A stretch of DNA of 49,385 nt, from contig NZ_PGOI01000014.1 in the NCBI RefSeq assembly GCF_002794355.1, positions 1-49,385 of the forward strand, written 5' to 3'. The notes beneath the pieces are model-generated. The model did not search any database. It was not told the origin of the DNA and saw only the letters and a list, made by a program, of their open reading frames with translations. Below, piece by piece: positions 1 through 10,439 of the stretch (the first letter of the stretch is position 1; every line of letters begins with the position of its first letter). A program made the position numbers and the translations under genes. Source of the DNA: Pseudorhodobacter sp. MZDSW-24AT. GTDB lineage: Bacteria; Pseudomonadota; Alphaproteobacteria; Rhodobacterales; Rhodobacteraceae.

Positions 1-1032
1 GGGACGGGCGGCGGCGGGGCTGGCGGCAGCGCCGGGGGTGGCACGGGAGGCAGCGGCACGGGGGGCAGCGCCGGGGGTGGCACGGGGGGCACGCCCCCCG
101 GAGGCAGCACGGGCGGAGGCAGCACAGGGGGCGGCCCCACCCCGCCGCCCGCCGTCACATTGCCCGCACAGCCTTTCGAACCCGCGCGCCTTGCAGATTG
201 GTCCACCGATCCCGCATGGGCCGATGGCAGCACCGCCGCGCGCAGCCTTTCCGGCACCCCCGGCGATGACACGCTCATCGGCGCTTCAGGGTCGGATTTC
301 CTGCAAGGCGGGCTGGGCGATGATCTGCTCTACACGGGCCTTGGCAATGACACCGTGTTTGCCGGACCGGGGAATGACACGCTTTTCGCTGCGGGTGGCA
401 CCAACGAACTCTGGGGCGGCCCCGGAAATGATGTGATCCGGGGCCGCGGCGGCAGCGATTACATCGGCGCCGGCACGGGCGACGATCTGGTGGATGGCGG
501 CGGTGGGCAAGACACCATCTGGGGCGGCGCCGGGGCCGACACCCTGATGGGCGGCAGCCGCGCCGACAGGCTCGGGGGCGGCAGTGGTGCCGACAGGCTC
601 TATGGCTTTGGCGCGGACGATCTCATCTTCGGCGGGCCCGACGCGGATACGGTGCATGGTGGCCTCGGCGCCGACACCATCTGGGGCGGCCCCGGACATG
701 ATCTGATCGCCGGCGGCGCGGGAAATGACACGCTCTCAGCCGGAGCAGGCACCGATCACCTCTGGGGCAATGCCGGGGCCGACACCTTCCTGTTCTACCG
801 CAATTACGAACGCAGCTATCTGCGCGATTTCAACCCTGCCGAAGGCGACGAGATCGCGCTCACGCAATGGCTCTTCAACGGTGCGCCGCCCGGGGCAGAT
901 CAGATCGTGCAAAGCTATGGCCAGATCACCGCAGAAGGCGCGGTGCTCACCCTCACCGCCGCCAATGTCATCATCCACATTCCGGGATTTTATGATCTGA
1001 ACCTTCTGGCCGATCACATCGCGGTCATCTGA
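1..1032 (+). CDS. RTX-type calcium-binding secreted protein, 5' end missing
   Basis: The reading frame is open from base 1, so the gene starts upstream of the window. The first ~45 codons encode a Gly/Ser/Thr-only low-complexity stretch ending in a Pro-rich turn. Then come about ten nonapeptide RTX repeats of the GGxGxDxLx type (for example GGLGDDLLY, GGPGNDVIR, GGAGADTLM), which in the family fold into a Ca2+-binding beta roll. The C-terminal ~80 residues (GADTFLF, then YLRDFNPAEGDEI) resemble the serralysin-type C-terminal domain that carries the signal for type I secretion. Established for the family: secretion by an ABC/MFP/TolC exporter and folding outside the cell on calcium. Inferred: a surface or matrix protein, fitting the glycan genes that follow. 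The catalytic or adhesive part, if any, lies upstream. A TTG at 160 is in frame but is not needed as a start. The 165 bases to the next gene show no clear terminator. Confidence 0.88.
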   Translation, partial: GTGGGGAGGSAGGGTGGSGTGGSAGGGTGGTPPGGSTGGGSTGGGPTPPPAVTLPAQPFEPARLADWSTDPAWADGSTAARSLSGTPGDDTLIGASGSDFLQGGLGDDLLYTGLGNDTVFAGPGNDTLFAAGGTNELWGGPGNDVIRGRGGSDYIGAGTGDDLVDGGGGQDTIWGGAGADTLMGGSRADRLGGGSGADRLYGFGADDLIFGGPDADTVHGGLGADTIWGGPGHDLIAGGAGNDTLSAGAGTDHLWGNAGADTFLFYRNYERSYLRDFNPAEGDEIALTQWLFNGAPPGADQIVQSYGQITAEGAVLTLTAANVIIHIPGFYDLNLLADHIAVI

Positions 1033-2913: not shown

Positions 2914-5900
2914 ATGATCCCCTTCCGCACGGCACATGGCGCGTTGTTTCAGTGTCAGGTCGACCCGGCCTTGACCTTTTACGCAAATCTCAACTTCTGC
3001 CTCGCCCAGCCCGACCACATCGGCTTTCATCTCTCGCTGCGGCTCCCCGAAGGCGTGGTGGTCGCCAATCGCAAAGACGCAAGCGGCTGGCACCGTGAAG
3101 AGCACCTGCCGCTCCGCTTCCCCGACCGCCCCTTTGCGCTTGCCCTCGCCTTCACCGCCGCTGCCGTCACCGTCACCCTCGACGGCACCCCCTTCGGCCG
3201 CTTTCCCCGCCTCCCCCGCCCCGACCGGAAGGCCCGCTTCTTCCTGCGCCGCGGCTACCCCGATCTTGCCCGCATCGCCCATTGCAGCGTTGAAGGCGCC
3301 ATCCCTTGGGAAAGCATCGAAACCCGCGACCACAGCTTCGACCGCCTCTGGCAATCCTTGCGCCCCGGCGCGCCCCCCACCCTCACCGACCGGATGGAAC
3401 TGGCCGAGCGTCTGCCCGCGGGCCAGACCCAACCGCGCCACGCCGTGCTGCTGCCGGGGGCCGAGGCGCCGTTGCCCCTGCGGCCCGCCACCGATGCCCG
3501 CAACACGGCCCCCAACACCTTCGCCCTTCCCCAAGGCGTGGCCGCCGTGCTGATCCCGGGCCGCATCTGGCGCGGCACCGCACCCGACGCGCCCGCCCTC
3601 CTGCCGCTGATCGACACCGCCAGCGGGCACGCCCTCGCCCCCGTGCAGATCGACCGCACGGGCCTTGCCCAGCGCCTCACCCGCCTTGCCGCCTCCGGCA
3701 GTCTCGCGCATGACGATCTTGCCGCCCTGCAAGCGATCGAACATGTGCAGCACGCGGATCTCTGGCCCCGGTTGCCCTCTGCGGTGCAGTCCGCGCTCAC
3801 CGCCGCCGCCGCGCGCCTGCACCTGCAATCCCAGCTTCCCGCGTCCCCGCTTCCGCCAGCGCCGACGCCCGCGCCACAGCCCTTTGCCGCCCTCACCGCC
3901 GATCTCGCGCGGATCTTAACCACCAACCCCGACCGCGCCGCCCTCGCACACTGGCTCTCTGTCCTGCCCCGCCCAGCAGACCCCGAAGCGCTGGCCCTCA
4001 CCCTCTGCCCCAGCTTCTGCGCGGCAGATGCCTTTGATCTGCTTTACAGCGCCGCCGCTGCACGGGACCTGCCACCCCCGCGCGCCAGTGATGACGTGGG
4101 CTATCTTTCGCTGCGCCTGCCCTTTCATCTGCTCGACGGCTCCGCCGATCTGGTGGCCGATCATCTGCACCTTCTGGCCAAGCGCCACGGCGGCTGGCTC
4201 GCCAGCACCGCCATCGGCTGGATCGCCCGCAGCATCGCGCCACCCGGCGCATTGGCCCTGCCCGAGGCCAAGCGGCTTGCCATCCTGCACGGCTTTTGCG
4301 CCCTGCTGCGCGCGCAAGCCGCCGATCCTTGGGGCCGCACCCCCTGCCACGGGATGATGGAAGGCACCCTCGCCCTCATCGCCCACCTGCCACGCCTGCC
4401 CGCCGACAGCCGCAACACCCTCATCGCCAGCACGCTCATGGCCTATGGCCTGTCGCCGCGCTTCTGGTCCCGCCTGCCCAGCAGCGCAGGCGACGCCAGC
4501 CTCTCGGCCCTCGCCCCCGATCTTGCGACAGCCCGCGCGGCCTTTGCGGGGCTGAGCGATCCGCAAACCTGTGCCGCAAGCCTTGCCGAACTGGCCCGGC
4601 TGAACGTTCAAGGCACCGACTCCGCCGCGCTGTGTCTGCTCTCGCCCGACTCGCGGCGCGCGGCGGCCCCGTGGCACCCGGACATGGCCTTGCGCGATCT
4701 TTTCCACCCCGGCAACGGCACAGACCCCGATTTCGACGTGCCCGCCGCCATCGCGCGAAGCCTGCCCCGCTTTGGCCCCCGCCCTCGCGTCTCTCCCTTT
4801 CAGACGCTCGAGCGGAAGCTCGGGGCCGCTGCCTTTTCGCTGCTCACCACATGGCACAGCACCGCACCTGCGCAGCGGCACGCCGCACTGCAAGACTGTC
4901 TGACCGATGCGCTCGCGCTCTCTGGCCCGGCGGCAGGGCACCTCGGCTTGGCCGTGAGCCTTGGCCTCCTGCGCGCCCTGCACGCTGACACAGCGGCCCG
5001 CGCCCTGCTGCTCGCGCATCTGCACGCGCTGCGCGCCGGGGGAACTGCGTCCCCCGCCGACATCCTCGCCGCGCCCGCCTCGCGCCTTGCCTTGCAGGCG
5101 CTACCGCCGCAGCCCGCCGCCGCCGCCCGCGCGGCACTCGGCCTGCCTGATCTTGCCAGCCCCTCTCCGCCAGCGGATGACATCCCCAGCCCCGCCACCG
5201 CGCTTTTCAACACGGTTGTGGTGGTGATGTCCTGCCAGCCCCATCTTGCCACCCGAATTCCGGCCTTGCGCCAGACATGGCTCGCCGATCTCGACCGGAT
5301 GGGCATTCCCCATCTCATCGTCGTGGGCCGCCGCTCCGCGCCCTCTGCCGCGCCTTTGCAAGACAGCGCCGGGGTGGTTTTCCTTGATGCACCCGATGAT
5401 TACGAAGGCCTGCCGCAGAAAACCCTTGCCGCCATCGCCCATGTGCAGACGCACTTCCCCGGCCGCCGCCTGCTCAAGGTGGATGATGACTGTTTCCTGC
5501 ACGCCGAGGAATATTTCCTCAGCCTCGCCTTCCTGCGCGCCGATTACCACGGTCGCCCCTTGGGCCGCGCTCGGGGGCAGATGGACCGCACATGGCACCG
5601 TGCCAAGTCGACCACGGCGCGCGGGCAGCATGATCTCGACAAATCGCCCGAGCCCTCCACCTATGCCGATGGGGGCTCCGGCTATCTGCTCAGCCCCGAT
5701 GCGATGACCGCCCTGTCCCGCAGCGCCACCACCGCCGAAGGCCAGCGGCTGATTCAGGCCTCTTTCATGGAGGACAAGCTGGTGGGCGATCTGCTCGCGC
5801 TCTCCGGCATCCGCGTGACGGGAGATGATTACCGCGTGCATGTGCTGCGCCGCAGCCGCCCCGGCGGGCTTCTGGTGCCGAAATGGGAAGACGCCTGCCT

Positions 5901-6975
5901 TCCCTTCACCGGATCGGGGATCGCGCTTGCGCATCTCGACGGCCCGGATCTGCAACAGGCCGCCGCCCGCGCCGCGCGCGCCCGCCGCCCGACCGGGGCC
6001 AAGATCTGGCCCACGCTGGTTCCGGCCCGGCTCGGTGCGCAAAGCCATGCGCTGGATCTGCTTTCGCCCCCCGCCCGGCTTGATCTCGCCCGCAAGGCAC
6101 CCGTGGCGGTGGTCGCCTGCCTGCGCAACGAAGCGGCGATGCTGCCGCATTTCCTCGCGCATTACCGCAGCTTGGGCGTTGAAAGCTTTCTGATCGCCGA
6201 CAATGGCTCGGACGATGGCACGCTGGAACAGCTGGCCGATCAGCCCGATGTGGCGCTCTTCACCGTCGACACCGACTACAACCAGTCACATTACGGCGTG
6301 CTCTGGCAACAAGCGCTGATGGCCGCCTTCCGCCCCGACCGCTGGTCTTTGGTCGCCGATGCCGACGAGCTTCTGGTCTGGACCGCCGATGCGCGCGGGC
6401 ATCTGCCCGACCTGCTGGCCGACCCTGCCTTTCACGGCTGCGATGCCGCCCGCATCTTCATGCTCGACATGTATCCCCAAGGCCCCCTCTCTGCGACCGA
6501 CTTCGCCCGCGATCCGCCCTTCACCGCCGCCCCCTTCGTCGACCGCATGCCCTTTCTCACCACCGCCCTCGGGCGCGGACCCTTTTCCGACAGCCTCACC
6601 TACACCTCCGCCACCCGCCACCGGCTGCTGCCCGGCTCCCGCTCCGAACTCTTCGTGGCGCAGAAAATCGCCCTTCTGCGCTACCGCCCGTGGATGCGCC
6701 TCAGCGACGGGCTGCATTACGTGGGCGAAACCCGCCTCTCGCCCCGCAGCCTGCTCTTTGGCCATTTCAAATACACCGCCGCCTTCCGCGCCAAGGCCCA
6801 AGCCGAGGTCGCGCGCGGCCAGCACTTCAACAATTCCGAGGAATACCGCAAATACCTCGACCTTCTGGCCGAAGGCCGTGACCAGATCCACGAGCCCGCC
6901 GTCTCGGTCCACTGGACGCAAAGCCCCTTCGTGCAAAGCATCCTGACCACCGGCCAGCCGCCTCAGCCTCGGTAA
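2914..6975 (+). CDS. Galectin-like lectin domain fused to GT31-like and GT2/GT92-like glycosyltransferase domains
   Basis: 1353 residues, no signal peptide or TM segment seen. (1) Residues ~20-125 align by eye with animal galectins: FYANL (galectin-1 FVLNL), FHLSLRL with H39 and R43 (HFNPRF), VVVAN with N52 (IVCN), GWHREE with W59 and E62 (WGTEQR), then the beta-strand pattern ending FGRFPRLP (KFPNRL). Six of the eight classical sugar-contact positions are kept; N46 is replaced by S41 and R73 by H64. (2) Residues ~130-765 are Ala/Leu/Pro-rich, probably helical, and unrecognised. (3) Residues ~766-985 look like GT31 (fringe/core-1 galactosyltransferase type): RIPALRQTW, KVDDDCF with DDD at 857-859, YADGGSGYLLS at 917-927, FMEDKLVG at 951-958. 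(4) Residues ~1065-1340 look like Glyco_tranf_2_4/GT92: CLRNEAAMLPHF, IADNGSDDGT, VADADE at 1147-1152. Inferred role: a cytoplasmic bifunctional enzyme elongating a galactose-containing glycan, with the lectin domain holding the acceptor. Its stop overlaps the convergent GT4 gene by 13 bases. Confidence 0.85.
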   Translation: MIPFRTAHGALFQCQVDPALTFYANLNFCLAQPDHIGFHLSLRLPEGVVVANRKDASGWHREEHLPLRFPDRPFALALAFTAAAVTVTLDGTPFGRFPRLPRPDRKARFFLRRGYPDLARIAHCSVEGAIPWESIETRDHSFDRLWQSLRPGAPPTLTDRMELAERLPAGQTQPRHAVLLPGAEAPLPLRPATDARNTAPNTFALPQGVAAVLIPGRIWRGTAPDAPALLPLIDTASGHALAPVQIDRTGLAQRLTRLAASGSLAHDDLAALQAIEHVQHADLWPRLPSAVQSALTAAAARLHLQSQLPASPLPPAPTPAPQPFAALTADLARILTTNPDRAALAHWLSVLPRPADPEALALTLCPSFCAADAFDLLYSAAAARDLPPPRASDDVGYLSLRLPFHLLDGSADLVADHLHLLAKRHGGWLASTAIGWIARSIAPPGALALPEAKRLAILHGFCALLRAQAADPWGRTPCHGMMEGTLALIAHLPRLPADSRNTLIASTLMAYGLSPRFWSRLPSSAGDASLSALAPDLATARAAFAGLSDPQTCAASLAELARLNVQGTDSAALCLLSPDSRRAAAPWHPDMALRDLFHPGNGTDPDFDVPAAIARSLPRFGPRPRVSPFQTLERKLGAAAFSLLTTWHSTAPAQRHAALQDCLTDALALSGPAAGHLGLAVSLGLLRALHADTAARALLLAHLHALRAGGTASPADILAAPASRLALQALPPQPAAAARAALGLPDLASPSPPADDIPSPATALFNTVVVVMSCQPHLATRIPALRQTWLADLDRMGIPHLIVVGRRSAPSAAPLQDSAGVVFLDAPDDYEGLPQKTLAAIAHVQTHFPGRRLLKVDDDCFLHAEEYFLSLAFLRADYHGRPLGRARGQMDRTWHRAKSTTARGQHDLDKSPEPSTYADGGSGYLLSPDAMTALSRSATTAEGQRLIQASFMEDKLVGDLLALSGIRVTGDDYRVHVLRRSRPGGLLVPKWEDACLPFTGSGIALAHLDGPDLQQAAARAARARRPTGAKIWPTLVPARLGAQSHALDLLSPPARLDLARKAPVAVVACLRNEAAMLPHFLAHYRSLGVESFLIADNGSDDGTLEQLADQPDVALFTVDTDYNQSHYGVLWQQALMAAFRPDRWSLVADADELLVWTADARGHLPDLLADPAFHGCDAARIFMLDMYPQGPLSATDFARDPPFTAAPFVDRMPFLTTALGRGPFSDSLTYTSATRHRLLPGSRSELFVAQKIALLRYRPWMRLSDGLHYVGETRLSPRSLLFGHFKYTAAFRAKAQAEVARGQHFNNSEEYRKYLDLLAEGRDQIHEPAVSVHWTQSPFVQSILTTGQPPQPR

Positions 6976-8432
6976 AGCGCCAAAAGCCGGTCCAGATGCG
7001 GCCCCATCGTCTCGGGCACCACCGCATCGCGCCAATAGGCCTCGGCCCCCACCGCGCCCGACAGGATCGCCCCGATCCGCGCCGCGAAATCCGCCGCATC
7101 GCCTGCGCGGAACACAAACGCCGGGCTGCGCCCCAATTCCCGCGCCCCCCCCAGATCGCTGCACAACACCGGCACCCGCCGCGCGTGCAGCTCGATCGCC
7201 ACCTGCGGCAGGTTGTCCTCCCACATCACCGGCACCAGCCCCAGCCCCACATCCGCCAGCAGCCCGTCCAGATCCGCATGCCCATAGCCATCCTGATGCC
7301 GAAAGCCCGCCAGCCGCGGGGCCAGCGCCGCCAGCCGCGCCATCACCGCCGCCTCGCCGCGCCGCGCCGCCACCAGAAGATGCAGCCGCCCCAGCACTGC
7401 ATCGGGCAAGGCCTCCAGCGCCTCCAGCAGGAAGTAAAATCCCTTGTCCCGGCGCATATAGCCCAGATAGGCCAGCGCCAGCGTGCCATCCGCGCGCAAG
7501 ATCGGCCCGCGCGCAGGGGCCGCCGCAAAACCCTCGGCAGCCACCGTGCCAATCGGCAGCGTCACCGCCCGATCCGCCCGCACCCCTTCGCGCAGCGCGA
7601 TCTGCCGCACCCGCTCCGACACACACAGCACCACATCGCAATGCGCATTGATCCGCGCCACCATCGCCGCCCGCCGCGCCACAAAGCCCGCGCCTTCCGC
7701 CTGCACTCCGGGCGCGACCGCCCCCGCCTCCGTCCGCCGGCGCCGCAAACCCTTGCGCAGCCGCGCCAGCCGCCGCGCCACCCCAAAGGCCAGACGAAAG
7801 CTCTCGCGGTAGACCCGCCCCAGCGGCGACACCCCCGCCACTTTCAGCCTGTAGCCCAACCCATGCGCCGCCCGCACCTGCGCCGCAGGCCAGCGCTGCG
7901 GCAAGCAGGTCACACAGCGCCGCCCGGCCTCATCCTCGGTGCAGTTGCGCGCCTCGTCCTGCCAGAAATTCACCTGCGGGCAGAACGGGTAATAATTATG
8001 CAGGCTCAGCACAAAGCGGGTGCCGGGCAGCGCGGCCCGCAACGCCAGCACATCCACCGGCAGCCCTTCCAGATTGTTGAAATGCACCACATCATAAGGC
8101 CCGGTGCGGCGCAGGAAATCTTCGAACACCGCCTCGGTCGCCGGATGGCGCAGCTGCGCGGACTGCCCGAAAGACGCATGCCCCGGCGCCAGCACGCCCG
8201 AATTCACCAGATCAAACCGCCGCCCGCGATCGTCCATCGGGCCATGCCGCATCGGTTCCCAGCGCGGCGCGCGGCGCAGCGGATCGTAAGAGGTGCCACT
8301 GGCCAGAAACACCGCCTCCACCCCGTTGCGCCCCCGCAAAGCCTGCATCAGATTGCGCTGATACAGGGAAACCCCGCCGCCGCGCTGTTCCGGGTCCAGA
8401 TAATCCACCCAGTTCACATACAGAATCTTCAT
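6963..8432 (-). CDS. Glycosyltransferase family 4-type (GT-B fold)
   Basis: 489 residues counted from MKILYVNWVDYLDP; the frame stays open 43 codons further upstream, but that stretch lies inside the preceding gene and is not conserved-looking. The N-terminal domain has the Gly-rich acceptor-side loop RGGGVSLYQRN. A cysteine-containing insert after LHNYYPFCPQVNFW (several C residues, including RRCVTCL) is common in a subset of GT4 enzymes. The C-terminal Rossmann half has LAYLGYMRRDKGFYFLLEAL and the ELHARRVPVLCSDLGGARE segment that in GT4 contacts the donor nucleotide sugar. Retaining transfer from a nucleotide sugar in the cytoplasm is the family reaction; the sugar is unknown. Its start overlaps the stop of the sulfotransferase gene by 4 bases, so the two are translated from one mRNA. 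Confidence 0.87.
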   Translation of the reverse strand: MKILYVNWVDYLDPEQRGGGVSLYQRNLMQALRGRNGVEAVFLASGTSYDPLRRAPRWEPMRHGPMDDRGRRFDLVNSGVLAPGHASFGQSAQLRHPATEAVFEDFLRRTGPYDVVHFNNLEGLPVDVLALRAALPGTRFVLSLHNYYPFCPQVNFWQDEARNCTEDEAGRRCVTCLPQRWPAAQVRAAHGLGYRLKVAGVSPLGRVYRESFRLAFGVARRLARLRKGLRRRRTEAGAVAPGVQAEGAGFVARRAAMVARINAHCDVVLCVSERVRQIALREGVRADRAVTLPIGTVAAEGFAAAPARGPILRADGTLALAYLGYMRRDKGFYFLLEALEALPDAVLGRLHLLVAARRGEAAVMARLAALAPRLAGFRHQDGYGHADLDGLLADVGLGLVPVMWEDNLPQVAIELHARRVPVLCSDLGGARELGRSPAFVFRAGDAADFAARIGAILSGAVGAEAYWRDAVVPETMGPHLDRLLALYRG

Positions 8433-9178
8433 GCGGGCAGCTCGTCCTGAAGCCAGTCCTCGCGCCCCAGATGCCGCATATAGGCCTCGATCGGCCCCGG
8501 ATCGGCAAAACGGTCCAAAACCCGGTTCGCCCCCTGCTTCACCAAGGCCGAGGCCATGCAAGGATCAGGCTCCACCCCCAGAAAGCCGCAGATCTGCGCG
8601 GCAAAGCCGGGCTGGAACATCTCCCGATACTCCACCGTCATCTTGCGGTTCGGCAACCGCTCCAACCATTGCGCAAACAGAAAATCCATCGTCGCATAGT
8701 CATGCCAATGCTGGCTGATCTGCTGCGGCGTCGCCTCAATCTTCTTGCGCATGCCCAAAGACCGGCGGGTCTGCGCCCAATTCCGCGTCTGCATCGCCTT
8801 CAGATATGACGCCACCTGCGCAAGACGGTTGTAGCGATGCACGTAAACGATCGTCACGTCCGACAGTTCGGGCAACTGCGTCAACACCCGGATGTTGTGC
8901 CCCAGCATCAGCTTGAACCCAATCCGCTTGTGCGGCCCGCTGGCATGGCGCTGAAAGAACGCTTTCAGGAAATAGCGCGGCGCCCGGTCGCGTTCCCACA
9001 GCAGATCAGGGCTATAGTCCGCCGCGCCGGTCTCGATCACCGAATAAGGGTTGAAGACCTCGCCCGAACAGCTGATCTCGGGATGCGAATCCAGCAGGCT
9101 CATCAGATAGGTGGTTCCGCTGCGCGGCAGACCCACGATCACAAATCGCCTGTCCTCATCCTGCATCGGCCCGGTCAT
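8429..9178 (-). CDS. PAPS-dependent sulfotransferase
   Basis: 249 residues from the ATG at 9178. Residues 12-24 (FVIVGLPRSGTTY) are the 5'-phosphosulfate-binding loop that replaces a P-loop in sulfotransferases, and IVYVHRYNRLAQVASY matches the 3'-phosphate-binding region. EVFNPYS and the Y-R-E-M-F segment resemble NodH/Stf0-like carbohydrate sulfotransferases. Family reaction: transfer of sulfate from PAPS to a hydroxyl, here most likely on a sugar, given the flanking glycosyltransferase and UDP-galactopyranose mutase genes. I chose 9178 because GGGCGGGATGGA lies just before it; an in-frame GTG at 9208 would add ten residues without a good Shine-Dalgarno, and ATG 9166 is a third option. A 25-codon ORF with a better ribosome-binding site overlaps the start in another frame (see separate entry). 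Confidence 0.85.
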   Translation of the reverse strand: MTGPMQDEDRRFVIVGLPRSGTTYLMSLLDSHPEISCSGEVFNPYSVIETGAADYSPDLLWERDRAPRYFLKAFFQRHASGPHKRIGFKLMLGHNIRVLTQLPELSDVTIVYVHRYNRLAQVASYLKAMQTRNWAQTRRSLGMRKKIEATPQQISQHWHDYATMDFLFAQWLERLPNRKMTVEYREMFQPGFAAQICGFLGVEPDPCMASALVKQGANRVLDRFADPGPIEAYMRHLGREDWLQDELPA

Positions 9179-9233
9179 TCCATCCCGCCCTGCTTCCGCC
9201 CGAAACACGGGCGGATGCGAACAGTTTCACCAT
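9156..9233 (-). other. Possible upstream ORF/leader peptide before the sulfotransferase
   Basis: On the minus strand an ATG at 9233 is preceded by GAAGGAGATC, the best ribosome-binding site in this stretch. It opens a 25-codon reading frame (MVKLFASARV...) that ends at 9156, a few codons inside the sulfotransferase gene in a different frame. Termination so close to the sulfotransferase starts would allow translational coupling. It could equally be chance. Confidence 0.3.
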
Positions 9234-9332: not shown

Positions 9333-10439
9333 ATGGGCATTCTGATTGTCGGCGCAGGCTTCTCGGGTGCCGTCATCGCGCAAGAACTGGCGCAGGCCGG
9401 TCTGTCCAGCACCGTCATCGACAGCCGCAGCCATATCGCCGGGAATTGCCACACCGAACGCTGCCCCGAAACCGGCATCCTGCTGCACCGCTATGGCCCG
9501 CATATCTTCCACACCGATGATGCCGAGGTCTGGGCCTATCTCAACGCGCTTGGCCCCATCATGCCCTTTCGCAATCAGGTCAAGGCCACGGTGCGCGGCG
9601 CGGTCTATGCGATGCCGATCAACCTGCACACGATCAACCAGTTCTTCGGCCAGACGCTGCGCCCGGCCGAGGCGCGGGCCTTCATCGCGCGTCGCTGCCA
9701 CCCCGCCCATACACCCGCCGTCAGCTTTGAAGATCAGGCGCTGCAAATGGTCGGCCCCGAGCTGTATGAGGCATTCTTCAAGGGCTACACCGAAAAGCAA
9801 TGGGGCCTGTCACCCCGCGCCTTGCCCGCGTCCATCCTCAAGCGGCTGCCGATGCGCTTCAATTATGATGACAACTATTTCAGCCATCGCTTTCAGGGCA
9901 TCCCGCAGGATGGCTATACCCCGCTGGTCGCGCGGCTGCTCGATCATCCACGGATCACCACCCATCTGAACACGCCCTATCGCCCCGACATGGCGGCCGC
10001 GCAGGATCACATCTTCTGGTCAGGCCCGCTGGACGGCTATTTCGGCTTCCGGCTCGGGCGGCTCGGCTACCGCACGCTTGATTTTGAACGCTTCACCGAG
10101 GATGGCGATTATCAGGGCTGCGCGGTGATGAACCACCCCGACGCCAAGGTGCCCTATACCCGCGTCACTGAACACAAGCATTTCGCACCTTGGGAAAGCC
10201 ACGCGCAAACCGTGTGTTACCGCGAATATGCACGCGCGGCGGGCCCCGAGGATACGCCCTATTACCCCATCCGGCTCAGCGCGGAACAGGCGCTCTTGTC
10301 CGACTATCAAGCACTGGCCAAGGCCGAAGCCGGGGTCACCTTCGTGGGGCGGCTGGGCACCTATCGGTATCTCGATATGGATGTGACCATCCGCGAGGCC
10401 CTCGACACCGCCCGCCACTTCCTCGCCCAGCGTCGCTGA
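9333..10439 (+). CDS. glf: UDP-galactopyranose mutase
   Basis: 368 residues, the usual length. GAGFSG at residues 7-12 is the FAD dinucleotide-binding loop; RSHIAGNCHTE and YGPHIFHTDD are the two signatures that mark UGM among flavin amine oxidase-like proteins, and GYTEKQWG and the NYDDNYF segment belong to the substrate-binding region. The enzyme interconverts UDP-galactopyranose and UDP-galactofuranose with reduced FAD, supplying the donor for Galf-containing polysaccharides. The ATG is preceded by GGCGGAGAAC at suitable spacing. The gene is divergent from the sulfotransferase/GT4 pair, with a ~100-base shared upstream region. It implies that the glycan made by this locus, or another surface glycan of the cell, contains galactofuranose. 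Confidence 0.95.
   Translation: MGILIVGAGFSGAVIAQELAQAGLSSTVIDSRSHIAGNCHTERCPETGILLHRYGPHIFHTDDAEVWAYLNALGPIMPFRNQVKATVRGAVYAMPINLHTINQFFGQTLRPAEARAFIARRCHPAHTPAVSFEDQALQMVGPELYEAFFKGYTEKQWGLSPRALPASILKRLPMRFNYDDNYFSHRFQGIPQDGYTPLVARLLDHPRITTHLNTPYRPDMAAAQDHIFWSGPLDGYFGFRLGRLGYRTLDFERFTEDGDYQGCAVMNHPDAKVPYTRVTEHKHFAPWESHAQTVCYREYARAAGPEDTPYYPIRLSAEQALLSDYQALAKAEAGVTFVGRLGTYRYLDMDVTIREALDTARHFLAQRR

Follow-up and report, generated by a model that had tools for sequence, protein, structure and literature searches.

What might a galectin-like domain, of a type best known in animals, fungi and plants, be doing on a large glycosyltransferase of some marine and freshwater bacteria? The question is raised by a gene in a stretch of 49,385 nucleotides from Pseudorhodobacter sp. 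MZDSW-24AT (assembly GCF_002794355.1, contig NZ_PGOI01000014.1, positions 1-49,385 of the forward strand), referred to here as the window. The gene is an unbroken open reading frame of 1353 residues on the plus strand, with its ATG at 2914 and its stop codon at 6975. A preliminary description, made from the letters of the window, had proposed that its product joins a galectin-like domain, a GT31-like glycosyltransferase (GT) domain and a GT2-like domain, in that order. Pfam matches, profile searches and model folds bear out all three domains and their order, and we consider it somewhat probable, from sequence, models and analogy, that its product is a modular glycosyltransferase of the cytosol which assembles a surface polysaccharide, either capsule or exopolysaccharide, that contains galactose and is often sulfated. 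Beyond the preliminary description, we found some 630 residues between the lectin and GT31, the spread of the family and a polysaccharide locus context.

A scan of the whole protein with hmmscan gave three matches, all of which exceed the curated Pfam cut-offs: PF13704 (E = 9.9e-26, residues 1071-1167), PF00337 (E = 6.2e-7, residues 26-98) and PF01762 (E = 7.8e-7, residues 784-967). By the Pfam, structure and profile searches of the sequence, the galectin and GT31 matches are far beyond chance. The 1353-residue protein had zero NCBIfam matches, and no obvious membrane helix was found in it (top 19-residue hydropathy mean, 1.55). Sequence and predicted models together show a galectin-like domain with a conserved galactoside-site pattern, a beta domain plus solenoid, and then GT31 and GT2 domains whose motifs are intact.

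The galectin call holds at several levels. PF00337 scored 29.4 bits with the whole protein and 34.6 bits with the lectin segment (gathering cut-off 22.1), residues 1-141 as a single-sequence query against solved structures reached Galectin-9 at 2.3e-7, and a lectin-segment profile of 74 sequences matched solved galectins at E = 2.5e-19. The Pfam model matched 62 of these 74 segments at E up to 0.01, and the modelled segment of the window protein is predicted to fold as a galectin beta-sandwich. Galectins carry an eight-residue sugar-site signature. The window protein keeps six of the eight residues (H39, R43, V50, N52, W59 and E62), exactly those named in the preliminary description, and departs from the full signature at two positions: Ser41 replaces the Asn between His and Arg, and His64 replaces the last Arg. 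We therefore call the domain galectin-like, not a canonical galectin; it is a homologue by profile and fold.

The GT31 segment is likewise well supported, with PF01762 at 29.5 bits against a cut-off of 23 and a profile of 28 sequences that reached B3GalT6 at 1.4e-8 and B3GalT5 at 5.9e-6. The metal- and donor-type motif DDD 857-859 and the catalytic-type motif ED 953-954 are invariant both in the 28-sequence set and in the 74-sequence set, and the model of the segment has a predicted GT-A fold of the GT31 type. The best fold matches of the model include B3GNT2 and CHSY3, the latter a part of the chondroitin polymerase complex. B3GNT2 and CHSY3 use other donors, so the "galactosyl" label of the preliminary description is not settled.

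The third domain, recognised initially by CLRNE, DNGSDDGT and DADE, matches PF13704 at 90.5 bits (cut-off 27.5). Of 81 rows, 80 or 81 retain its N1072/E1073, D1096/N1097, D1101/G1102 and D1149/D1151/E1152; D1149 and D1151 stand in 80. Two adjoining GT2 frames at G000:C24:668857-670853, each of about 350 residues, are 34-35% identical to this C-terminal domain; other relatives have similar pairs, which may be related to the domain's source. The roughly 630 residues between the lectin and GT31 comprise a small beta domain and an alpha-helical solenoid in the structure model of an 880-residue piece, whose mean predicted local distance difference test (pLDDT) value is 89.5 over the entire piece. 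Nothing in this region rose over a Pfam cut-off in the 10 of 74 members scanned.

A partner GT2 gene ends 33 bases upstream of the galectin-GT gene. In 19 of 80 relatives a homologue of the partner forms the N-terminal part of the protein itself, a fusion that places three GT domains in one chain (frames of 1812-2054 residues, of which the shortest is truncated at a contig end). The well-supported branches of a tree that includes 18 of the 19 fused copies force at least three changes in the fused state.

How widely is this protein distributed? Among 101 genomes searched, the window's own included, seven others have a long match that spans most of the protein: five of the same genus carry full-length copies at 68-71% identity (G002, G011, G004, G009 and G013), and G031 and G022 match at 42-43%. 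The remaining matches cover only the GT2 part, except for one N-terminal piece of G022. Within the family, 8 of 295 genomes have PF00337; within the order, 21 of 390 have PF01762, in frames of 1205-2085 residues. This distribution was sampled inside one phylum, where each of the two domains was found in 2 of 398 genomes, both times the window genome and G304 of the same family; 14 named control genomes had neither. Because full-length copies sit among bacterial genes in several bacterial genomes, contamination with eukaryotic DNA was rejected. A phage origin was rejected as well, P0001 being unmatched among 50,697 phage records.

When 84,980 species genomes were scanned, the GT31 domain had 126 relatives, of which we analysed the best 80. 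These are labelled Rhodobacterales, except for L099, L140 and L155 (class or phylum only), L120 and L126. L120 (labelled Methylobacterium sp. Leaf118) and L126 (labelled Bordetella petrii) form one group inside the roseobacter portion of the tree, a nesting that suggests transfer or mislabelled contigs. Of the 80 relatives, 73 have the domain according to a lectin profile built from 24 of 28 aligned rows of the same family; a contig end truncates six of the remaining seven frames, the exception being L111. Five Roseobacteraceae plasmids bear the gene including its lectin, in records that name the product only as a glycosyltransferase or glycosyltransferase family 2 protein.

For the neighbourhood of the gene, we took those 53 of the 80 loci for which 20 kilobases or more of sequence were available and compared them with 20 control stretches of 20 kilobases from relatives, a small control (n = 20) at positions of our own choosing. 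The partner GT2 is present at 44/53 loci (two query proteins pooled, fused copies included), a GT4 at 34, an ATP-binding cassette (ABC) permease at 23, an export-type "sugar transporter" at 21, a sulfotransferase like that of plasmid pS3B at 19, and Glf and RTX genes at 18 each, compared with 0/20 controls in every case. On pS3B the gene lies alongside GDP-fucose, rhamnose, Glf, sulfotransferase and ABC exporter genes, and on plasmid p4SUD7 alongside a sulfotransferase, an exporter and galE. The partner GT2 is encoded next to the protein or fused to it, and GT4, sulfotransferase, Glf and capsule-type ABC exporter genes, as recognised by sequence, are nearby in part of the relatives. Two "hypothetical" genes (L160:14787-15563 and L161:8203-8958), which lack a Pfam match and have an RRTGGT-type motif close to their start, each resemble genes at 13/53 loci; we read them as possibly unrecognised sulfotransferases.

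From this architecture and setting we infer that the protein works in the cytosol as a polymerase or co-polymerase for a surface polysaccharide, with the growing chain held by its galectin domain. GT31 and the C-terminal GT2 domain would each add one sugar of the repeat, that of GT31 probably being a beta-1,3-linked galactose or related sugar, and the partner GT2 would add a third. The galectin domain may grip beta-galactoside units of the nascent chain near the active sites, contributing to acceptor selection and processivity, and the product would be sulfated and then exit through the ABC exporter. Modular polymerases combined with export by an ABC transporter are established in Klebsiella (excerpts of PMC11231755).

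Several observations weigh against this proposal. It rests on sequence and predicted models, with sugar binding and donor as predictions. The permease is found at fewer than half of the loci and Glf at 18/53, and the five loci nearest the window (L080-L084) have no permease or sugar transporter match within the available stretch. An exporter set does occur in the window genome, together with ManC and a GalE-like gene, but it lies close to an end of contig C1 and not on the contig of the galectin-GT gene. Nucleotide-sugar genes are weaker evidence, because some control stretches carry them too: Fcl at 6/53 loci and 1/20 controls, galE at 12/53 and 1/20, rfbB at 16/53 and 2/20, and rfbC at 8/53 and 1/20. 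Within the lectin, 72 of 74 rows have Ser for Asn and the last Arg varies, which may give an affinity or specificity unlike that of known galectins. In the 28-row set, which partly shares genomes with the 74-row set and was judged by eye and not by script, no galectin is recognisable in L063 or L079, and signature residues are missing from L066 and L078; L115 reads HQNWV, and the L111 frame has no lectin. The frequent presence of an RTX gene nearby, finally, lends a protein target some probability.

Such a target is nevertheless unlikely in our view. The enzyme would glycosylate a protein, for example the RTX protein encoded nearby, much as plant galectin-GALTs do when they start glycans on hydroxyproline-rich proteins, and the lectin would dock on protein that already carries galactose. 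RTX proteins normally leave the cell by the type I route, which makes the timing of a cytosolic glycosylation unclear. In the window the RTX gene precedes the partner GT2; this arrangement, the presence of RTX at 18 loci and at no control, and the plant precedent (excerpts of PMC8667403) are all consistent with glycosylation of a protein, but the other 35 of the 53 loci have no RTX match, and the partner GT2, GT4, permease and sulfotransferase genes point to a polysaccharide.

If the product is a polysaccharide, the galectin-like domain could still be a structural or assembly module (for dimer formation, for example) that binds no sugar, leaving an ordinary two-GT polysaccharide enzyme. The change of Asn to Ser, the variable last Arg and the few relatives lacking the domain would suit such a module, which we regard as rather improbable since a scripted count found H39, R43, N52, W59 and E62 jointly present in 72 of 74 rows. 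Ser41 is equally common (72/74), and the mean column identity of the alignment is only 36%; joint retention of five site residues in so divergent a set is consistent with selection for binding. In the structure-search alignment the first domain of 4hl0, a solved Toxascaris galectin, also has this Ser. Support in the literature for galactoside binding by that Ser-bearing domain was sought and was not found in the available text of the sources, PMC9402972 included. It is highly doubtful that the domain instead senses the chain end for termination or hand-over to the exporter, a quality-control role like that of carbohydrate-binding modules on the ABC ATPase for Klebsiella O antigens (excerpts of PMC11231755) with the modelled solenoid as a possible spacer, as the lectin is on the polymerase chain itself, where Pfam scans recognised no terminator module.

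For the domain within the proposed polysaccharide polymerase, we tentatively suggest a built-in, chain-holding clamp of a two- or three-GT polymerase in Rhodobacterales, independent of the land-plant galectin-GALTs, with a sugar site that would serve intracellular synthesis and not recognition outside the cell. This possibility is less secure than the assignment of the gene to polysaccharide synthesis.

Table 1. Positions of the galectin-GT gene, its parts and its neighbours in the window.
Feature	Position	Strand	Basis
RTX-repeat protein, 3' part	1..1032	+	PF00353; frame open to base 1, runs off contig start
Upstream partner GT2, 560 residues	1198..2880	+	PF00535, E = 4.9e-30
Whole gene, 1353 residues: galectin-like, beta domain, helical solenoid, GT31, GT2_4	2914..6975	+	Unbroken open reading frame
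Galectin-like domain, residues 1-142	2914..3339	+	PF00337, profile and predicted fold
Putative sugar-site residues H39, S41, R43, V50, N52, W59, E62	3028..3099	+	H39/R43/N52/W59/E62 together in 72/74 rows
Small beta domain, about residues 148-246	3355..3651	+	Model secondary structure; no Pfam match
Alpha-helical solenoid, about residues 248-742	3655..5139	+	Model; no Pfam match
GT31-like GT-A domain, residues 752-1010	5167..5943	+	PF01762 and predicted fold
DDD 857-859, DxD-type metal/donor motif	5482..5490	+	Invariant in 74 sequences
ED 953-954, xED-type catalytic motif	5770..5775	+	Invariant in 74 sequences
GT2 domain (PF13704), about residues 1041-1353	6034..6972	+	PF13704, E = 9.9e-26; motifs in 80 or 81/81
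GT4-type glycosyltransferase, convergent	6963..8432	-	PF13692 and PF13439 over cut-off
Sulfotransferase	8429..9208	-	PF13469, E = 7.1e-15
UDP-galactopyranose mutase (Glf)	9333..10439	+	PF03275, E = 1e-75; TIGR00031, 305 bits (cut-off 303.75)

Towards the start of the contig the RTX frame passes through a Gly/Thr/Ser-rich linker before it runs off, and in four close relatives (L033-L036) the frame has 851-917 residues. An open reading frame of 484 residues at 6996-8450 (+) was rejected as a downstream gene: it has no Pfam or NCBIfam match and is an antisense shadow of the GT4 gene, matching relatives only because the opposite strand is coding. In relatives its frame is interrupted at differing places by stops of all three kinds, and for this reason a recoded or selenocysteine gene was ruled out.

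How does the protein compare with known systems? Each domain comes from a known family; what is new is their combination, order and setting. Animal and fungal galectins share the fold and six of the eight site residues; the domain here differs in its Asn to Ser change and variable last Arg, and in being a module of a large enzyme and not a free lectin. From the animal GT31 enzymes CHSY3, B3GalT5, B3GalT6, C1GalT1, B3GNT2 and Manic Fringe it differs by its GT2-type (PF13704) second domain and its lectin. The O2a backbone made by WbbM is a galactan that needs Glf. WbbM, which makes this backbone, WbbB and WbdA resemble the window protein in having at least two GT modules in one chain and in cytosolic assembly, which is predicted for the window protein, and they work with an ABC exporter (excerpts of PMC11231755), whose permease is encoded at part of the loci here; the GT31 module and the galectin domain belong only to the bacterial protein described here.

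The closest parallel is in plants. In the plant galectin-GALTs the galectin precedes GT31, and these are membrane-anchored Golgi proteins. The likeness is that GALT1-6 of Arabidopsis carry PF00337 and PF01762 in one chain (excerpts of PMC8667403 and PMC5225481). The bacterial protein differs in the long region between its lectin and GT31, in the second GT domain that follows, in its location in a bacterial polysaccharide locus and, by hydropathy, in having no obvious membrane anchor. According to the available text of PMC5225481, the pair of PF00337 and PF01762 occurs in land plants only, among genomes that include 15 archaea and 52 bacteria, and a 2026 review treats galectins as lectins of fungi and animals (excerpts of PMC13084444). 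Among the matches listed from titles and abstract starts of open-licence papers, we found no bacterial galectin or galectin-GT31 protein, in keeping with the preliminary description, which knew of no described bacterial protein with this domain order. At least 73 members of a bacterial family keep the galectin sugar-site residues, and the gene marks clusters for a probably sulfated surface polysaccharide in roseobacters and their kin. For the plant GALTs, the literature describes the function of the galectin domain as unknown and suggests that a further galactose might be held there (excerpts of PMC8667403); a bacterial homologue free of an obvious membrane anchor, in culturable strains, makes that question testable.

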